IMG/VR virus record: IMGVR_UViG_3300047550_002572
Coordinates: 1 to 56,110 of that record
Reading direction: 5' to 3' (one strand)
DNA length: 56,110 bases
From: a virus
Below are positions 6,612 through 19,757 of the stretch, in pieces (positions within the stretch are counted from its first letter, which is position 1; each line of letters opens with the position of its first letter). A program made the translations under genes and the position numbers. Below the pieces are notes generated by a model that saw only the letters and a program-made list of their open reading frames with translations, did not search any database and was not told where the DNA came from.

Positions 6612-9092
6612 ATGGACTACCCCGCTAATTGCCAGGTCTGTGAGCTCTACAAGACCTGCAAGACGTACAAGCAGCCGCGCCACGCGACCCAGCGCAAGGT
6701 AGACATCCTGCTTGTGGGGGCGACGCCCGCCGACAGCCAGTTCGGCATCATGTCCGATGGCGCAGGGGATTACTTGAAGACGTGGATGCAGTGGTGGGAT
6801 GGGCCGTGGGCATACACCACGGTGGTGAAGTGCGCCCCGCCCGACCGGCGGGAGCCCAAGCAGCACGAGGTGGAAGCCTGCCGCCGATACCTGCAAGAGG
6901 ACATCGAGCAGGCCGACCCAACGGTCATCGTCGCACTAGGCGGGGCTGCGTTGAAAGCGTTGTGGCCGGACGGGCCGACGAGCATCGTCAAGGCAAAAGG
7001 TGCCCCCATCCAGCTCGGCAATCGGTGGCTCATCGTCACCTACAGCCCCACGATGCATCTCAGTGGTCGGCAAGACCTGACTCCCGAGTACACCCGCGTG
7101 TTCGAGCTTGCCACTCAGATATGCGAAGGGCGGTATCTCACCGAGCGGCCAGACATCCGAGAGGTGCGAACGCAGGACGATTACCAGGCGATGCTCACGC
7201 AGGTGCAGGCTTCGCACGAGGTTGCCCTCGACGTGGAGAACCCCACGACCAGCTTTCACGACGACCCCACCCGATACACGTTCTGGATGACTGACCCCGC
7301 CGTGATCTGTCTCGGCGTGGGCACTGAACCGAAGAAGCCTGTGTGGGTGATGCGCCGACAGTGGATCACGGCAGACCTGCTGCGGTTGATTGCGAAGAAA
7401 CACATCGTGGGCGCAAACGTCAAGCACGACCTGACCGCACTGGCGTGGGACGTGTGGCCGGGGTTCCTCGACGCCATCACCAGCATCGACGACACCATGC
7501 TGTGGCATGGCAGCCGCAATCAAGACGAGTGGGGCAACGGCCTGAAGGAGATGGCCGAGCGGTATCTTGGCGCCGCGAGCTGGGTCTGGCCGGTGCGACG
7601 AGCCCTCGACGCCGAGCGTGCTCGAGTGGTGGCCGCTCGGGGCGAGCAACGCAAACGTCAGCGCACGGCAGAGAAGCTGGGCCACCCGTTCAACGAGGAG
7701 CCCATCTCGTGGCCCACGTTTACCGACGTGGATTGGCCGACCCTCGTTGAGTACAACGGCAAGGACGTGTGGTACACGATGCGGCTGATTGCATACCTTC
7801 GCGAGAAGCTTGAACCCGCTGCGGTGTATCGGTCGCTTCTTGTCCCAGGCACACTGACGCTGGCTCGAATGGAGCTGGCGGGCGTGGGAGCCGACCCGTT
7901 GTGGCGTTCTGGTCTCGAAGTTGCGTTCACCGAGAAGGTGGAATATCTGCGACGGCGCTTGCACGAATTTCCCGAAGTGAAGCGCGTGTGCGTGAAGCAG
8001 GGCCTGACGTGCGAGCCTGACGCACCGAAGACCTGGTTTAACCCGAAAAGCCCACCCCACAAGGAGGCCCTGCTCGACGAGTGCAACGTCGAGGTGACCG
8101 AGACGACAGCGACGGGCCGTCCTAAGACCGACAAGCGGGTGGTAGCCGAACTGATCACGCAGGGATACACGGTTTGGAAGTACGTCCAGGCCCTGACGCA
8201 GACGCGAGACAGGCTGTCCAAGTTTGTGATCCCGTTGGCGCATCACATCGCACGGGACAATCGGATTCATCCCAACTTCAAAGCCATCAAGGTGCAGACC
8301 AGTTCTGACGTGGGGGCTGACTACAGCGGGGGCGCAGAGACGGGGCGCATGGCTGTGAGCGATCCTGCCATGCACAACAACGTCAAAGACGCCATCTTCC
8401 GAAGGATGTTTGTCGCCGCGCCAGGGTGCGTGCTGCTGGAGATGGACCACAGCGCAATCGAGGTGCGAGTTGTGGCCTGGTTGTCCGATTGCCGATCACT
8501 GGCGGCAATGTTCAGCACGGGCCGAGACGTGTACGTTCAAATGGCCGAGAAGATGTTCAAGAAGAAAGGGCTGACGAAAAAGAGCCCTGAGCGGGACTTG
8601 GCAAAGACGGGGACGCTGGCAAAGATTTATAGGCAGGGCGCGGCAGGGCTGGCGTCTCGAGCGGGGATCATGCTTCACGAGGCGGTGGATTTCCAGGCTC
8701 AGTTCGACCGAGACTTTCCCGAGCTCGAACAGTGGCAGCAGCATCTCATCAGCCTCGCTCGAAAGGGAGAGATGTACACGACGGTGTGGGGTCGGCAATG
8801 GACGTTCAGCCCCGACGCCAGAGACAACGAGATCGTGAATCGCCCCGTGCAGTCGAGCGCCACCGACTTGTGTTTCTGGCAGGCAATCAATGCGCCGCAC
8901 AAACCGCGGCTGCTGCTGTTCACGCACGACTCGCATCTCATTGAGGTGCGGGCCGAGGAAGCAAACGAGATGGCGAGGACACACAAAACCTGGATGGAAA
9001 ACCGAGACGTGTTACCAGTGCAGGTCACCGTGCCGCTGGTCGTCGAGGTGAAACAAGGCTTGAATCTGGGCCGCATGGAGGTGCGAGAGTGA
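6612..9092 (+). CDS. Family A DNA polymerase with N-terminal uracil-DNA-glycosylase-like domain
   Basis: An 826-residue replicative polymerase. Residues 1-175 match family 4 UDG: Cys7, Cys10 and Cys90 in Fe-S positions, VGATPADSQFG near 35 and TTVVKCAPPDRREP at 69-82. The usual HPx motif reads TYSPTMHL at 143-150, lacking the histidine. A 3'-5' exonuclease follows (VALDVEN 204-210, GANVKHDL, and YNGKD for motif III). The polymerase has motif A LLEMDHSAIEVRV, motif B R-x3-K-x3-L-x3-Y and motif C FTHDSHLIEV. The residue matching E. coli Phe762 is Leu. GGAGG precedes ATG 6612. The UDG part may be inactive or only bind uracil. Confidence 0.92.
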   Translation: MDYPANCQVCELYKTCKTYKQPRHATQRKVDILLVGATPADSQFGIMSDGAGDYLKTWMQWWDGPWAYTTVVKCAPPDRREPKQHEVEACRRYLQEDIEQADPTVIVALGGAALKALWPDGPTSIVKAKGAPIQLGNRWLIVTYSPTMHLSGRQDLTPEYTRVFELATQICEGRYLTERPDIREVRTQDDYQAMLTQVQASHEVALDVENPTTSFHDDPTRYTFWMTDPAVICLGVGTEPKKPVWVMRRQWITADLLRLIAKKHIVGANVKHDLTALAWDVWPGFLDAITSIDDTMLWHGSRNQDEWGNGLKEMAERYLGAASWVWPVRRALDAERARVVAARGEQRKRQRTAEKLGHPFNEEPISWPTFTDVDWPTLVEYNGKDVWYTMRLIAYLREKLEPAAVYRSLLVPGTLTLARMELAGVGADPLWRSGLEVAFTEKVEYLRRRLHEFPEVKRVCVKQGLTCEPDAPKTWFNPKSPPHKEALLDECNVEVTETTATGRPKTDKRVVAELITQGYTVWKYVQALTQTRDRLSKFVIPLAHHIARDNRIHPNFKAIKVQTSSDVGADYSGGAETGRMAVSDPAMHNNVKDAIFRRMFVAAPGCVLLEMDHSAIEVRVVAWLSDCRSLAAMFSTGRDVYVQMAEKMFKKKGLTKKSPERDLAKTGTLAKIYRQGAAGLASRAGIMLHEAVDFQAQFDRDFPELEQWQQHLISLARKGEMYTTVWGRQWTFSPDARDNEIVNRPVQSSATDLCFWQAINAPHKPRLLLFTHDSHLIEVRAEEANEMARTHKTWMENRDVLPVQVTVPLVVEVKQGLNLGRMEVRE

Positions 9093-13987: not shown

Positions 13988-14384
13988 GTTCTTCATCCAG
14001 AGTGATCTGGCGCGGGAAGAGAAAGAGATGGAGAAGGCCATCGCCGAGATGGGCGAGGCCACCATCAAGCGCGTTTACGAAGACGACGGCGACGACAAGC
14101 CGCTGGAAGGCGGTGTGGGCGAGCTCGAACGGTTGCTGCGCGTTGTCGCAAAGGACCCGAAAGGGTTCACCTACGGCAAGTACAGCGTTCTTAACCCGCA
14201 CGGCCACAAGGAGACCATCACCGACTTCGGTCGCGGTCGGATGACGTGCATGGGGTGCGGCTTCGAGACAGGCGTGATCTTCCTCCAGACGCACAGGTCC
14301 TGGGTCTACGAGTGCAACTGGCGATGCAAGAAGCTCTACTGGATTCCTCGAGACGTGGGTCTGCCCACGCTGGAACGCCAGTGA
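13980..14384 (+). CDS. Hypothetical protein with Cys motif
   Basis: A 134-residue protein with an acidic helical N-terminus (EEKEMEKAIAEMGEATIKRV) and a C-terminal region containing MTCMGCGFE and YECNWRCKKLYW, two Cys pairs that could hold zinc. It overlaps the methylase gene by GTGA. No family was recognised. Confidence 0.75.
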   Translation: MSEFFIQSDLAREEKEMEKAIAEMGEATIKRVYEDDGDDKPLEGGVGELERLLRVVAKDPKGFTYGKYSVLNPHGHKETITDFGRGRMTCMGCGFETGVIFLQTHRSWVYECNWRCKKLYWIPRDVGLPTLERQ

Positions 14385-15040
14385 AGCCCGCACGTGTCGT
14401 AGTCATCGACTGTCCTTGGGAGTACCGTTCTCGGCATGACACCCGCAAGAAGTCGAAGTTCGGGTACGGGGTTGCCGCACGATATTCTAAGGGGGTGATG
14501 AATGAGCAGGCGCTTGTCGAACTGGGACCGTTGATCCGAGCAGTCTGCACGCCAGACGCCTACGTCTTCTCGTGGGCGACTCGGCCCAATCTCGACGTGG
14601 CGATTCGAGTGCTCGACGGCTGGGGGCTGAAGTTCATCACCATGCCGATGACGTGGGTGAAGCTGTACCGTGACGGGTCGCTGTTCAAAGGGCCTGGCCG
14701 GTACACGTTTTCGAACGCCGAGGATCTGCTGCTGGGGCGGTACCCCAAGTCAAAGTGCTGGCACCCCAACACCGGCTGGCGACCTGAGAGCGTGGTTCAG
14801 ACCGTACACCCGCAATGTGAGAACAAGAAGATTATTCACAGCCGCAAGCCCGAAGAGGTTCAGGACGCGCTCGACCGATGGCTTCGCCCCTACGCAGGGG
14901 ACAGCACGTTCCTGGAGATTTTCGCGACACGCCCTCGAGATGGGTGGACGTGCTTCGGATACGACGTGACAAAGCGAGACATCCGAGAAGACCTCAAAGA
15001 CATGGCCGCGCAGATTGAACTGGAGGCATTGGCAGAATGA
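14381..15040 (+). CDS. MT-A70-family adenine methyltransferase
   Basis: A 219-residue protein of the MT-A70/phage adenine-N6 methylase type. GTG 14381 is chosen because it overlaps the upstream stop. The catalytic motif normally DPPW reads DCPW at residues 10-13, followed by EYRSRHD. The body has the family pattern of PDAYVFSWATRPNLDVAIRV, LKFITMPMTWVK, KKIIHSRKPEEVQ and FLEIFATRPRDGWTCFGYD. It probably methylates adenine in phage DNA to evade restriction. The Cys in place of Pro leaves activity uncertain. Confidence 0.85.
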   Translation: MKPARVVVIDCPWEYRSRHDTRKKSKFGYGVAARYSKGVMNEQALVELGPLIRAVCTPDAYVFSWATRPNLDVAIRVLDGWGLKFITMPMTWVKLYRDGSLFKGPGRYTFSNAEDLLLGRYPKSKCWHPNTGWRPESVVQTVHPQCENKKIIHSRKPEEVQDALDRWLRPYAGDSTFLEIFATRPRDGWTCFGYDVTKRDIREDLKDMAAQIELEALAE

Positions 15041-15801
15041 AAGGCATCCATCGAGCAGGCGGGTCGGAGATGCAGACGACCTGCCCACAGTGCGGGAAAG
15101 AGAAGCTGTACGTCAGCCTTCGGAAGCGGCTGGGCTACTGCTTCTACTGCGGGAAGGGGTTCAGCCAGGACGAAGTGCGCCGACTCGGCATGGACGACGA
15201 AGTGCAGGCGTTCACAGCGGTCATCAACCGAGACAACCAGCACATCAACTTGGTATCGCCTGAAACCGACGCCGACGCTCGAGCCTACCTCGCTAAACGA
15301 AAGGTCCGCGCCAAAGACTGCTCGTCGTTCATTATGTACTCGCCTGAGCTGCGGCGGCTGTTTTTCCGCATCTGGTCGCCCAACAGCGCGGCTTACGCGC
15401 CTGCGTACCATACCCGAAGCATAGACCCAGGCAAGGGGTGGATGTGCAGCCCAGGCGTGCAGAAAGCCCACTACTGGTTCGGGCATCGAGGGGGAGAAGT
15501 GATCACCGTGGTTGAGGGGATCTTCGACGCCATCTCCCTGCACCATCGAGGCGTGGTCGCCGTCGCCCTGCTGGGCACCCAGATGTCCGAAACTCAGCTT
15601 GCAGGGCTGCTGGAGTGGAACCCTCTGCAGCAGGTGGTAGTGTGGATGGACGACGACGAAGCAGGACGTAAAGCTTCAGACCGTATCTGCGCCCAGCTCG
15701 AACCCGTCGTTCGTTCGGTGGTGCAGGTGACCGAGCATCCTGAGCCTTCAGAGAGTTCCGACGTTCCGGAGGAATGTTATGCGATTCATTGCCACCGGTG
15801 A
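15037..15801 (+). CDS. Zinc-ribbon/TOPRIM primase-like protein
   Basis: A 254-residue protein, translation-coupled by ATGA (ATG 15070, with GGAG upstream, is an alternative start). The N-terminus has a zinc ribbon with Cys16, Cys19, Cys35 and Cys38. The C-terminal half is a TOPRIM fold with VVEGIFDAI (Glu160) and VWMDDDEAGRKASDRI (acidic cluster 205-208). This is the layout of the T7 gp4 primase part without the helicase. It should make RNA primers for the lagging strand, working with the DnaB-like helicase. Confidence 0.85.
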   Translation: MKGIHRAGGSEMQTTCPQCGKEKLYVSLRKRLGYCFYCGKGFSQDEVRRLGMDDEVQAFTAVINRDNQHINLVSPETDADARAYLAKRKVRAKDCSSFIMYSPELRRLFFRIWSPNSAAYAPAYHTRSIDPGKGWMCSPGVQKAHYWFGHRGGEVITVVEGIFDAISLHHRGVVAVALLGTQMSETQLAGLLEWNPLQQVVVWMDDDEAGRKASDRICAQLEPVVRSVVQVTEHPEPSESSDVPEECYAIHCHR

Positions 15802-16819
15802 TGTTCACATTTCCGACCGATTGGTGAATGGCCGATCTCGGCTGGAGGTGGGCGAGCGCCTGCTGATGGACATTGGCGCCCTCGCCGCCCATCACAAGGT
15901 CGGCCACGTCTTCATCAACGGCGACCTGTGGGACAAGAAACAAGGAACTCCTCGAGGCGTGTTGCGGGTGATCTACCGATGCCTGCGCCACATGAAGTTT
16001 AAACTGGGGCTGAAGGTTCACTGGCTGCGCGGCAATCACGAAACGCCTGACAACAGCGACCCCACCGATACCATGATGTCGCTGTTCAGCGAGGTGGCCC
16101 ACGTTGTGGTTCGACCTGCTGTGTTCGACCTGCCAGACTGCAGGTTTTTTCTCCTTCCATGGTACCCCGCACCAGCCTTCATCAAACATGCCCAAGACCT
16201 CGCAACGAAGGCTCGAGGCAAGCGGGACAAGCGGCAGATTCTGTTCGCGCATGTCGGGCTCAGGGAAGGAAGGATTTCCCCCTCTAATATCCAACTTCCC
16301 CAGAGGGTGTCGGTGACTCACTTGTACCCCGACTTCTACGATGCCGTGCTTCTGGGCGACTATCACAGCCACCAGATGCTGACCGACAACGTGATGTACA
16401 TGGGAGCCCCCATTCCTCATCTGTTCGGGGACGAAGGGTTCTCGGAGGGGCCTTGGCTGGTGGACACCGACACCATGAACATGGAAACGCTGGGGCTCCC
16501 ACACGGCTACCCCAAGTTCAGGAAGTGGACGCTGACCAGCGCGGAAGCGGTGACGATTCCAGGCTACGACGTGGCCGACTACAACCGGATCTACGCTCCG
16601 GTGACATCGCACCAAGTGCTACGGGCGATGTACGCAGGAGCGGACCTGCGCCCGCTATCGGTCGAGCCGGTGCTCGACATGAGCCAGAGCCGAATTAGCG
16701 CGGAGGACGTGCAGTCTCCCGAGAAGCTGGTAGATCGGTTCCTGGCCCTTCGAGGGAAGGGCGGGGACGAGGGGAAAGCCCTGCGGGAAACCGCACTCGA
16801 ACTGATACGAGAGGTATAG
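15779..16819 (+). CDS. SbcD/Mre11-like nuclease (T4 gp47-like)
   Basis: A 346-residue metallophosphoesterase. Metal-binding motifs occur in order: GDVH 7-10, GDLWD 48-52, GNHE 85-88, FAHVG, and GDYHSHQ. This set is diagnostic for the Mre11/SbcD group. The C-terminal part is helical and probably binds the SbcC partner encoded at 18021. The complex resects DNA ends and opens hairpins for recombination. The methyltransferase gene lies between the two subunit genes. Confidence 0.9.
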   Translation: MRFIATGDVHISDRLVNGRSRLEVGERLLMDIGALAAHHKVGHVFINGDLWDKKQGTPRGVLRVIYRCLRHMKFKLGLKVHWLRGNHETPDNSDPTDTMMSLFSEVAHVVVRPAVFDLPDCRFFLLPWYPAPAFIKHAQDLATKARGKRDKRQILFAHVGLREGRISPSNIQLPQRVSVTHLYPDFYDAVLLGDYHSHQMLTDNVMYMGAPIPHLFGDEGFSEGPWLVDTDTMNMETLGLPHGYPKFRKWTLTSAEAVTIPGYDVADYNRIYAPVTSHQVLRAMYAGADLRPLSVEPVLDMSQSRISAEDVQSPEKLVDRFLALRGKGGDEGKALRETALELIREV

Positions 16820-16824
16820 ACTTT

Positions 16825-18024
16825 GTGGATCCTTCCTCCTTCACTGTCATGTCGCTTTGTGCCGGAATCGGAGGGCTCGACCTCGGACTCCGACTCGCTG
16901 TTCCCTCTGCTCGAACAGTATGTGTGGTGGAGAGGGAAGCCTTCGCCATCGCGCACCTGGTCCAAAAGATGGAAAACGGTCACTTGGACCCAGCACCTAT
17001 CTGGACGGACCTTACTCGGTTCGACGGCAAAGCGTGGCGTGGCGTCGTGGATTGCATCATTGGTGGCTACCCGTGCCAGCCATTCTCGGTTGCGGGAAGA
17101 CGAGCTGGAACCGACGATCCAAGACATCTGTTCCCACACATTGCCCGCATCATTGCAGAGGTGCAACCTGCCGTGGTGTTCTTCGAGAACGTCGATGCCC
17201 ACCTTACCCTTGGATTTGAAGAAGTCGGAGAGCGACTTCAAGAACTGGGTTACATCGTTACGGCAGGCGTATTCTCAGCGTCAGAAGTGGGCGCTCCGCA
17301 TCGTCGAAAACGGTTGTTCATCCTGGCCCATCGCTACGGCAATGGATTCGGTAGGGAGTCGATCACAAGAATACCCAACTATCAGCGGACGACACAAAGG
17401 AACGACGCTGACCGACGCGATCCAGCAATGGCGTACTCCGAGCGCATCAGACGGCGAGGGTGGAGTGATGGAGATGCGCGCGGGGGCGGACGGCAAGTAC
17501 AAGCTACGCGACCACGCGGTGAACGAGACGAGGAAATGGTTGACGCCATCGTGCAGGGATTGGCGGGACGGTCGGGCTTCGGAGGAGACAATGAGTCACA
17601 ACAGCAGACCTCTGAACGAGGTGGCAGTTCATTCGGTTCGCACACAACCTTTGGCGGGGGAGACGCTTTCCGACATCGCGGTGGTGAAGATGGACGAGTG
17701 GCAAACCCCGGCGTCCTTTCAGGGCAGGACCAGGCGGCAGGGGGCGACGAGGGAGCAGCGCCAGGCCAGCCAGGTGGAGGCCATGCTCCCGCTGCAAGCG
17801 GAGAAGATCGCGCTTTCTCTTTGTTCCCCCCAGCACCAGACGACATCGACCGATGGCAAGAAACCGACAAAGAGCTCTGGCCTGCAACTCAATCCGATGT
17901 TCGTGGAGTGGTTGATGGGAATGCCTCACGGGTGGACCGACTGCGAGCACTTGGAAACGGAGTCGTTCCGCTTGTGGCAGCAGTCGCATTCCGAACTCTT
18001 GCAAAGGACCTTAGATTGCTATGA
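16825..18024 (+). CDS. DNA cytosine-C5 methyltransferase
   Basis: A 399-residue C5 methyltransferase starting at GTG 16825. Motifs are intact: LCAGIGGLDLGL (11-22), the PCQ catalytic loop with Cys84, ENV 121-123, PHRRKRLF 158-165, and the C-terminal RALGNGVVP near 374-382. Residues about 170-365, where target recognition should lie, are Gly/Arg-rich and low in complexity. A second frame over the same bases (17342-18046) encodes sequence typical of other phage methylases, so this half seems dual-coding. It probably protects phage DNA from restriction. It overlaps the SbcC gene start by ATGA. Confidence 0.9.
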   Translation: MDPSSFTVMSLCAGIGGLDLGLRLAVPSARTVCVVEREAFAIAHLVQKMENGHLDPAPIWTDLTRFDGKAWRGVVDCIIGGYPCQPFSVAGRRAGTDDPRHLFPHIARIIAEVQPAVVFFENVDAHLTLGFEEVGERLQELGYIVTAGVFSASEVGAPHRRKRLFILAHRYGNGFGRESITRIPNYQRTTQRNDADRRDPAMAYSERIRRRGWSDGDARGGGRQVQATRPRGERDEEMVDAIVQGLAGRSGFGGDNESQQQTSERGGSSFGSHTTFGGGDAFRHRGGEDGRVANPGVLSGQDQAAGGDEGAAPGQPGGGHAPAASGEDRAFSLFPPAPDDIDRWQETDKELWPATQSDVRGVVDGNASRVDRLRALGNGVVPLVAAVAFRTLAKDLRLL

Positions 18025-18046
18025 ATCTAACGCATCTCGCCCTTAG
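17342..18046 (+). CDS. Second-frame ORF inside the methyltransferase gene
   Basis: The frame +1 to the methyltransferase stays open for the whole length (16823-18046). From ATG 17342 it encodes 234 residues. Several stretches match what is usual in the C-terminal half of other phage C5 methylases: repeated WRTPSASDGEG / KWLTPSCRDW units, GTTLTDA, and LNPMFVEWLMGMPHGW followed by a FRLWQQSHSELL-like end. The first part, before about 17300, looks like a shadow. It may be a separate product, or be joined to the methyltransferase N-terminus by a +1 frameshift. Confidence 0.55.
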   Translation: MDSVGSRSQEYPTISGRHKGTTLTDAIQQWRTPSASDGEGGVMEMRAGADGKYKLRDHAVNETRKWLTPSCRDWRDGRASEETMSHNSRPLNEVAVHSVRTQPLAGETLSDIAVVKMDEWQTPASFQGRTRRQGATREQRQASQVEAMLPLQAEKIALSLCSPQHQTTSTDGKKPTKSSGLQLNPMFVEWLMGMPHGWTDCEHLETESFRLWQQSHSELLQRTLDCYESNASRP

Positions 18047-19757
18047 CGGGTTCAGGTCGTTCAAGCACAAGCACGAAGTTGCTTTTGACAAGGGCGCCGT
18101 GTTCGTGCTGGGACGAAACCATGACGACCCTGCGTTCGACTCCAACGGGGGCGGCAAGACCACCCTCTGCGCGGCCATCCCGTGGGCGTTGTACGGCCAG
18201 CTCTCCACCGCCGCGCAGAAGGACCAGATCATTCATCGCGAAGTGGACAAAGCCTCTGTCGAGCTGCGGTTCGGAGAAGAACTGATGGTGCGTCGGTCCA
18301 AAGAGCGCGGCCATCCCGAGGTGTTGTCGTTCTGGTACGAAGGAAGGTGGCACGAAGGAGACCTCGCGGCTACCCAAGAGAAACTCGTGCGCGTCATCGG
18401 CGTGTCTAGCTCGCTATTCTTCAACAGCCTTTGGATCGACGCGCAGAGCAAGGCGGTTCAGTTTTTGTGGGCAACACCAGGCAAGCGGTTGGAGATCCTT
18501 GAAGAGCTGATGTCGGACGGGATCTACACTGTTGCCCGTTCGAAGGCCGAAGAAAAGCGCAAAGCTCTAGAGCACAAGAAGGCGATGGCAAAGGGAAAGA
18601 TCGAGGCGTTCGTCGCTGCCGAGGAGCGAGAGCGCCAAGCCATCAACCGAGCGAAGGCTGAGATGGCCCAAGCGGTTACCGCTCGAACCACCCGCGTCGC
18701 CAAGCAGAATCAACGCCAAGTAGACCTTCGCGTGGAGATTGGGCGCTTGCAGGCCGAAGTCGATAGTTTGGAAGTGCAGGATACCCCCGACGCTATCACC
18801 GCCCAAATTCAACGATTCGAGTATGAGCTGAGTCAGATCGAGCAGCAGGGCAACGCAATACCTCTGCCGCCTACACTGCCCGAGGCCGGTACGACTTGTC
18901 CAACCTGCCTGCAGGGCATCCCCGCAGAGCACGTTCACGCCATTCATCGGAAAGCCGAGGACGGCATCAAGAAACGTAAAGAGCTGCGCGAGGCGGCAGA
19001 CCGCGCTCGAGAGCAACGGGACAAAGCCAAGCAACGGCTACGCGAGTTTGCGTCTACGTCGGCCCAGCGCAACAGCGTGGAACGCCTGTTGCGAGATCGG
19101 CAGCGGGAGCTGTCAGACTTGGCGCAGACACCCACGAACGACCCCTACATAGATTCGCTGCAGCAGACCATCGAGGCGGCGAAAGACGCCCTCGACGGGC
19201 TGCAGCGCAACATCCAGCAGCACGAGCAGATCATGCACGAGTGCGCCCAGAAGATCCCGCTCTACAAGTTCTGGGAGACGGGGTTTGGCGCTCGAGGGAT
19301 TCGCTCGCTCCTGCTCGACGACGTGCGGGCCATTCTGGCGTACCACACCGAGGTGTACGCAGCCGCACTGGCAGGTGAACAGATCCGCATCGAGTTTCCT
19401 GCGGGGGACAAAGGGTTCGAGATCCTGCTGCACACCCCCGCAGGCACCGCCGAGCTCAACACGTTCAGCCGCGGGGAATCTTGGCGGGCCAATCTTGGAG
19501 TGCTTTTGGCGTTGCGGAAGACGGTGGCACATCTGAGCGCGACACGGCTGTCGTTGCTTGTGCTCGACGACCCCTGCGGGGACCTCGACGACAGCGGAGT
19601 TCGCGCAGTCGTGAACACTGTACAGGCGCTTGCGTCTGAGTTCGGGACAGTGCTGGTGACGTTGCCGCGGCACGTTGACAACGTGAGTGACGATGATATT
19701 ATTCGAGTAGAAAAACGACAGGGCGTAAGCACCCTCGTCGTGACAGAGGAGGTCTGA
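18021..19757 (+). CDS. SbcC/Rad50-like ATPase (T4 gp46-like)
   Basis: A 578-residue SMC-type ATPase. The N-terminus has SGFRSFKHKHEV and the Walker A core NGGGKTT (42-48). Two long coiled-coil arms flank a zinc hook CPTC near residue 295. The C-terminus has FSRGESWRANLGVLLALR (signature) and the Walker B LLVLDDPCGDLDD. It partners the SbcD-like nuclease at 15779. It overlaps the methyltransferase stop by ATGA, and a promoter for the next gene lies within its 3' end. Confidence 0.9.
   Translation: MNLTHLALSGFRSFKHKHEVAFDKGAVFVLGRNHDDPAFDSNGGGKTTLCAAIPWALYGQLSTAAQKDQIIHREVDKASVELRFGEELMVRRSKERGHPEVLSFWYEGRWHEGDLAATQEKLVRVIGVSSSLFFNSLWIDAQSKAVQFLWATPGKRLEILEELMSDGIYTVARSKAEEKRKALEHKKAMAKGKIEAFVAAEERERQAINRAKAEMAQAVTARTTRVAKQNQRQVDLRVEIGRLQAEVDSLEVQDTPDAITAQIQRFEYELSQIEQQGNAIPLPPTLPEAGTTCPTCLQGIPAEHVHAIHRKAEDGIKKRKELREAADRAREQRDKAKQRLREFASTSAQRNSVERLLRDRQRELSDLAQTPTNDPYIDSLQQTIEAAKDALDGLQRNIQQHEQIMHECAQKIPLYKFWETGFGARGIRSLLLDDVRAILAYHTEVYAAALAGEQIRIEFPAGDKGFEILLHTPAGTAELNTFSRGESWRANLGVLLALRKTVAHLSATRLSLLVLDDPCGDLDDSGVRAVVNTVQALASEFGTVLVTLPRHVDNVSDDDIIRVEKRQGVSTLVVTEEV
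19675..19702 (+). promoter_or_regulatory. Promoter within the end of the SbcC-like gene
   Basis: TTGACA at 19675-19680, a 16-base spacer and TATTAT (5 of 6 consensus) at 19697-19702. It predicts a start near 19709, fifty bases before the gene at 19759, giving that gene expression apart from the replication operon. Confidence 0.65.

Follow-up and report, generated by a model that had tools for sequence, protein, structure and literature searches.

Why would a viral gene for a C5-cytosine DNA methyltransferase share its entire length with a second open reading frame? The locus in question lies in a 56,110 nt stretch of viral DNA, analysed as a whole and called the window here, in which the first-pass annotation had noticed two frames open across the same 1.2 kb. 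This is confirmed, as a frame-0 ORF (alpha) runs from 16825 to 18024 and a +1 ORF (beta) from 16823 to 18046, both on the + strand, as are the features of this pair given below. Judged from sequence, the locus is very probably a fully overlapping gene pair that encodes two chains, a large and a small domain, of one C5-cytosine DNA methyltransferase. Both frames are open, conserved and selected across relatives, the split between them falls at the domain boundary, and beta is homologous to the target-recognition part and motif IX (TRD–IX) of single-chain enzymes.

Alpha has a GTG start and 399 aa, and forms the large domain of a C5-cytosine methyltransferase with motifs I–VIII and X. It matches PF00145 (E = 7.7e-36, residues 6–175) and also TIGR00675, and the features expected of a C5-cytosine DNA methyltransferase of the PF00145 family, motifs I, IV (PCQ), VI (ENV), VIII and X, are all present. 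Motif IV, GGYPCQPFS with the catalytic Cys, is at 17062–17088 and its PCQ is invariant in alignments A4 and A6, while motif X, LGNGVVP, is at 17950–17970 with L376, G377 and N378 invariant in A6. The first-pass annotation had credited this frame with all core motifs, which is right for I–VIII and X but not for motif IX, as none was found in frame 0 and the motif is located in the +1 frame instead. Containing motif IX and the TRD within one chain is a usual, though not universal, feature of PF00145 enzymes; here both are in the +1 frame, which would make the methyltransferase of the window a two-chain version. The AF2 model of alpha (the alignments for the structure models had a few rows left out) has a pLDDT of mostly 83–97 over I–VIII (residues 1–170) and of ~90 for residues 380–399 (motif X), with a confident helix directly after motif X, and drops to 30–45 across most of the stretch that separates I–VIII from motif X. 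A Foldseek comparison of this model with M.HhaI gives E = 1.6e-13. The alpha linker that overlies the beta TRD (17347–17919) is of low complexity and low pLDDT and is weakly conserved.

Beta has 407 aa, begins at a TTG, a weak start codon, and carries the TRD and motif IX. Its TRD repeats are WRTPSASD (17429–17452; W/L-x-TP columns in alignment A1), WLTPSCRD (17537–17560) and WQTPAS (17699–17716), the latter two likewise in A1, and motif IX, LNPMFVEWLMGMPHGWTD, follows at 17888–17941, with L356, V361, M365, G366 and G370 invariant in alignment A5. The LNPMFVEWLMGMPHGWT of motif IX overlies RGVVDGNASRVDRLRALG in frame 0, directly 5′ of motif X. Motifs I–VIII and X are absent from beta. From about 17342 the first-pass annotation had recognised in the +1 frame the C-terminal region of other phage C5 methylases; the frame is not a C-terminal piece alone, as the ORF begins together with alpha. 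Protein searches with each frame separately, a check that the first-pass annotation had proposed, lead independently to PF00145 for alpha and to PHROG 1008 ‘DNA methyltransferase’ (E = 1e-19), 27243, 26627 and 31772 for beta, and PHROG 1008 was matched by 58/58 beta proteins tested. In a separate search, positions 41–282 of PHROG 1008 aligned to the +1 frame and positions 287–319 (motif X) to frame 0. When the alpha codons were resampled synonymously (20,000 trials) the +1 frame was open in 0.6%, with 4.4 stops expected and 0 observed; the +2 frame has 9 stops across the same stretch. A profile search of beta against the PDB gave no match, nor did a fold search with its AF2 model, which is poor (mean pLDDT 54) and confident only at a short helix (IX) and the C-terminal helix. 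Because of this poor model the fold of beta and its pairing with alpha remain predicted.

In M.HhaI and M.HaeIII the large domain holds the majority of the conserved motifs and the small domain the variable region and motif IX, and in a model of M.SssI motifs I–VIII and X are in the large domain (PMC3404938). Compared by hhalign with L145, a single-chain methylase from a Streptomyces genome, alpha aligns with I–VIII (E = 7.5e-27) and beta with TRD–IX (E = 5e-12). As alpha comprises I–VIII plus X and beta TRD–IX, just as in the known large and small domains, the two frames split the enzyme at the domain border. The same domains are found in single-chain C5 methyltransferases with a W/LPTP-type TRD (L145, L157) and in M.HhaI and M.HaeIII, but theirs are in one chain and one frame. 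Going by their motif content, alpha and beta look like complementary subunits.

With the window's alpha sequence no close viral relatives were found, the nearest full-length alpha being ~42% identical. A first look at ~20 phage or viral loci found the identical register, with motifs IV and X in frame 0 and IX in +1, and a search by the +1 motif retrieved at least 80 viral and at least 80 bacterial-genome loci of mostly the same layout. As a search by the +1 motif is biased toward this layout, the blind test was to search IMG/VR with the frame-0 motif X alone (alignment A2). Among the matches listed, motif IX is in the +1 frame at 79 of 80 loci, and L350 is the only one with IX in the frame of X; in about a dozen blind loci motif IX deviates by a residue substitution or a short indel. 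At the blind loci the +1 ORF typically extends 400–1350 nt upstream (contig permitting), as opposed to usually ~30–130 nt for +2. Between motifs IV and VIII the +1 frame lacks stop codons at 55 of 56 blind loci, compared to 9.4 expected by resampling, and the +2 frame is open in 0; the second-frame stops in relatives that the first-pass annotation had suggested looking for are thus nearly lacking over this stretch. The full layout is present at at least 264 loci (243 distinct), and the beta ORF reaches past motif IV in 98.9%. Stop-free counts over the whole of beta are open by construction, and the evidence is confined to the blind set and the extension past motif IV. Over the TRD, 0 frame-0 stops occur in 226 loci, chosen with frame 0 open, where 764 are expected given beta. 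Most relatives are metagenomic contigs, and the total number of loci is above those listed.

The start codons of the two chains are interlocked in the window, where TTGTG (16823–16827) contains both the beta TTG (16823) and the alpha GTG (16825), and a Shine-Dalgarno-like GAGAGGT (16809–16815; a consensus match only) is 7 nt 5′ of the former and 9 nt 5′ of the latter. At the aligned place relatives mostly have NTGTGG, where N is A or G; it reads ATGTGG in the majority of close relatives, including L114, L308, L331, L306, L003 and others, whose beta begins MW(I/L)xxP. The 243 distinct loci divide into two arrangements. In type 1 (93/243) the +1 frame mostly opens 30–60 nt 5′ of motif IV with a start codon immediately after, the first one being ATG in 80 of the 93 loci, and a Shine-Dalgarno sequence of at least 5 nt accompanies 72% of type-1 beta starts (for example taaAGGAGttagctaATG in L018) versus 3.8% of internal ATGs. 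In type 2 (150/243) alpha and beta usually have interlocked start codons, mainly at a distance of 4 (ATGaATG, 45 loci) or of 2 (ATGTG, 38 loci), and it is this type 2 arrangement that the window has.

As the window lineage is without a close relative, selection was measured on the family and not on the window lineage itself, using 58 independent pairs of relatives and substitution rates per frame-0 codon position (1/2/3). These rates are.110/.064/.250 from the start to motif IV,.133/.073/.216 over IV–VIII,.184/.061/.054 over the TRD,.168/.059/.089 around IX and.099/.061/.301 from X onward. Outside TRD–IX it is frame-0 position 3 that changes fastest, whereas over TRD–IX it is position 1, where +1 codons have their third base; at X the lead returns to position 3, whose share of.65 there reflects frame-0 selection. 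Position 1 exceeds position 3 in the TRD in 41 versus 5 pairs, and before motif IV in 2 versus 54 pairs. Codon periodicity thus switches frame at the domain boundary, with frame 0 conserved over I–VIII and X and +1 over TRD–IX. Change at alpha fourfold sites follows the same borders: in type 1 it is.290 before the beta start,.141 over IV–VIII,.009 in the TRD,.034 at IX and.329 after the beta end, and in type 2, the window's type,.262 before IV,.248 over IV–VIII,.035 in the TRD,.058 at IX and.375 after the beta end. Overall, alpha-silent fourfold differences amount to 0.9–3.5% in the TRD versus 26–38% outside. In type 2 beta also spans the whole 5′ part, and its N-terminal half is under little protein-level selection. 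Fourfold sites of beta in the TRD change at a rate of.22, close to that of free sites, so the alpha stretch there is weakly constrained beyond stop avoidance. With selection divided along domain borders in this way, one chain being constrained while the other mainly avoids stops, the overlap can persist.

The codon-position comparison in relatives that the first-pass annotation had called for therefore finds purifying selection in both frames, divided by domain. Its description of sensible protein in both frames over 700 bases needs narrowing, as both are open there but the conserved protein is mostly that of +1. Its suggestion of true overlapping coding stands, in view of the +1 motif IX in all but one of the blind relatives among the matches listed, the stop-free +1 frame and the selection on both frames.

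The other possibility that it had raised is programmed +1 frameshifting close to motif VIII, which would join I–VIII to TRD–IX and yield a second methylase form. The order of the frames suits a single +1 shift, and the single-chain relatives L145, L157 and L032 join the same parts. However, a frameshift calls for +1 coding solely downstream of the shift site and gives no reason for the +1 frame to be open over IV–VIII at nearly all blind loci, far upstream of the junction; moreover, in relatives beta initiates at a separate start codon, often with a Shine-Dalgarno sequence, alpha-silent change in type 1 falls at the beta start and not at the junction, and the fusion product would be without motif X. 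We consider a frameshift improbable, and it is not needed to account for the locus. The associated idea of two methylase forms with swapped recognition is unlikely as well, as alpha is without IX and has a weak low-complexity C-terminal linker, and beta is without I–VIII and X. If alpha and beta were instead both made but separate in their action, beta could be an inhibitor, decoy or regulator, and a complex of the two is indeed a prediction only. Yet their parts complement the two domains of a C5 methyltransferase, and in L037, L061, L137 and L138 it is beta rather than alpha that contains motif X, as expected of the parts of one enzyme, which leaves separate action very improbable.

Two further explanations would deny one of the frames a function. 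The C-terminal part of frame 0 could be unused, a by-product of beta together with an indel or sequencing error, and the weak frame-0 conservation of the linker agrees with this; but frame 0 is under selection at motif X, which is invariant there, the TRD is devoid of frame-0 stops at the 226 loci (again, chosen with frame 0 open), and hundreds of separate assemblies show the same register, so that the odds of this are slim in the extreme. Conversely, the +1 ORF could be a relic: a frameshift in a single-chain gene would have created frame 0, with the original frame persisting merely via frame-0 conservation. The homology of beta to the TRD–IX of single-chain enzymes fits such an origin, as does the resemblance of frame 0 over the TRD to a de novo linker. 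A relic would decay, however, whereas TRD substitutions follow the +1 frame and alpha-silent sites there are nearly frozen (.009 and.035 in types 1 and 2), and this is the least probable explanation of all.

Under the preferred reading, an overlapping gene pair for one two-chain enzyme, alpha would provide the AdoMet-binding and catalytic large domain (I–VIII and X), with its flexible linker occupying the usual place of the small domain, and beta would provide that small domain, with target recognition and motif IX. One ribosome-binding site may serve both chains via the interlocked start codons, and alpha and beta, translated together, would assemble into an active enzyme that could methylate the phage's own DNA, probably protecting it against host restriction. 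Translation of beta in the window phage, formation of the heterodimer, its activity and its biological role are what we infer from these comparisons. More generally, it is rather likely that a large share of the C5 methyltransferases in phages and prophages depend on two subunits, with their catalytic and DNA-reading domains in two frames of the same DNA, in which alpha over the TRD would be an overprinted linker, TRD modules could be swapped in beta at little cost to alpha, and the two start arrangements would keep the chains in step.

Two-polypeptide C5 methyltransferases include M.EaeI and M.EcoHK31I, and in the latter the small-chain gene is nested within the large-chain gene in another frame, a trait shared by the window, whose small chain is likewise encoded in another frame of the large-chain gene. 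As in the window, the large chain of M.EcoHK31I has motifs I–VIII and X and the small chain IX; in contrast, its predicted TRD is in the large chain (PMC3404938), while selection and the homology to L145 place that of the window in beta. A further difference from M.EcoHK31I is that beta of the window begins together with alpha and extends over the full gene. With this shared start and its TRD in beta, the window departs from the published description of M.EcoHK31I and is therefore classed as a variant. M.AquI is split after motif VIII, its small chain having part of the recognition region, IX and X (PMC3404938). Window and M.AquI are alike in their two chains divided after VIII and in a small chain with IX and at least part of the recognition region, but differ in motif X, which is in the small chain of M.AquI and in frame 0 of the window. 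L037, L061, L137 and L138 have the M.AquI layout in overlapping form, in that alpha stops after VIII and an overlapping +1 ORF holds the TRD, IX and X; L350 is similar. Fragments of several C5 methyltransferases are able to complement in trans (PMC3404938).

The arrangement is common to hundreds of phages and prophages, and annotation often has one of the two genes. Both are annotated in Paenibacillus phage Bloom, alpha alone in Escherichia phage ESSI2_ev129 and Salmonella phage SEN5, and beta alone, as a hypothetical protein, in Cronobacter phage JC01 (L357). PHROG 1008, 27243 and 26627, to which beta belongs, are labelled ‘DNA methyltransferase’ or unknown, with the overlap unstated. Among the papers searched, none presents such an overlap as a common trait of phage methylases, which is not proof of absence; what is new here is the breadth of the arrangement, the placement of the TRD in beta and the two start arrangements. 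On paper, many annotated phage methylases are left without their DNA-recognition subunit, assays with alpha by itself may give a false negative, and target prediction must draw on the other frame. Few long same-strand overlaps with both frames selected have been documented in bacteria and phages, and this one offers a clean system for testing the origin of overlapping genes.

Several further observations concern individual relatives and the surroundings of the locus. L010 and L018, and also L020 and L024, have both gene ends in common and different TRD modules, which suggests W-x-TP module exchange in the beta frame. In two related contigs (L015 and L017) motif I is in the beta frame and IV–VIII are in frame 0, indicating a further split or an indel, and in L027 (~2500–2560) and L031 (~130–180) the reading frame that holds motifs I–IV changes at a G run just past PCQDIS, due to sequencing error or a switching tract. 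In the window there is a three-frame overlap at 18021–18046, where the downstream AAA/SMC-type (SbcC-like) gene begins with an ATG at 18021, alpha stops (TGA, 18022–18024) and beta ends. The methylase pair is flanked by a calcineurin-like nuclease gene (15779–16819) and this AAA_23/SMC_N gene (18021–19757), an SbcDC-like pair, and MT-A70 adenine methylase and Toprim genes are upstream of the SbcDC-like and methylase genes (14246–19757 in all). Elsewhere in the window, a single ORF at 6612–9092 fuses a uracil-DNA glycosylase-like domain to a family A DNA polymerase with a 3′-5′ exonuclease.
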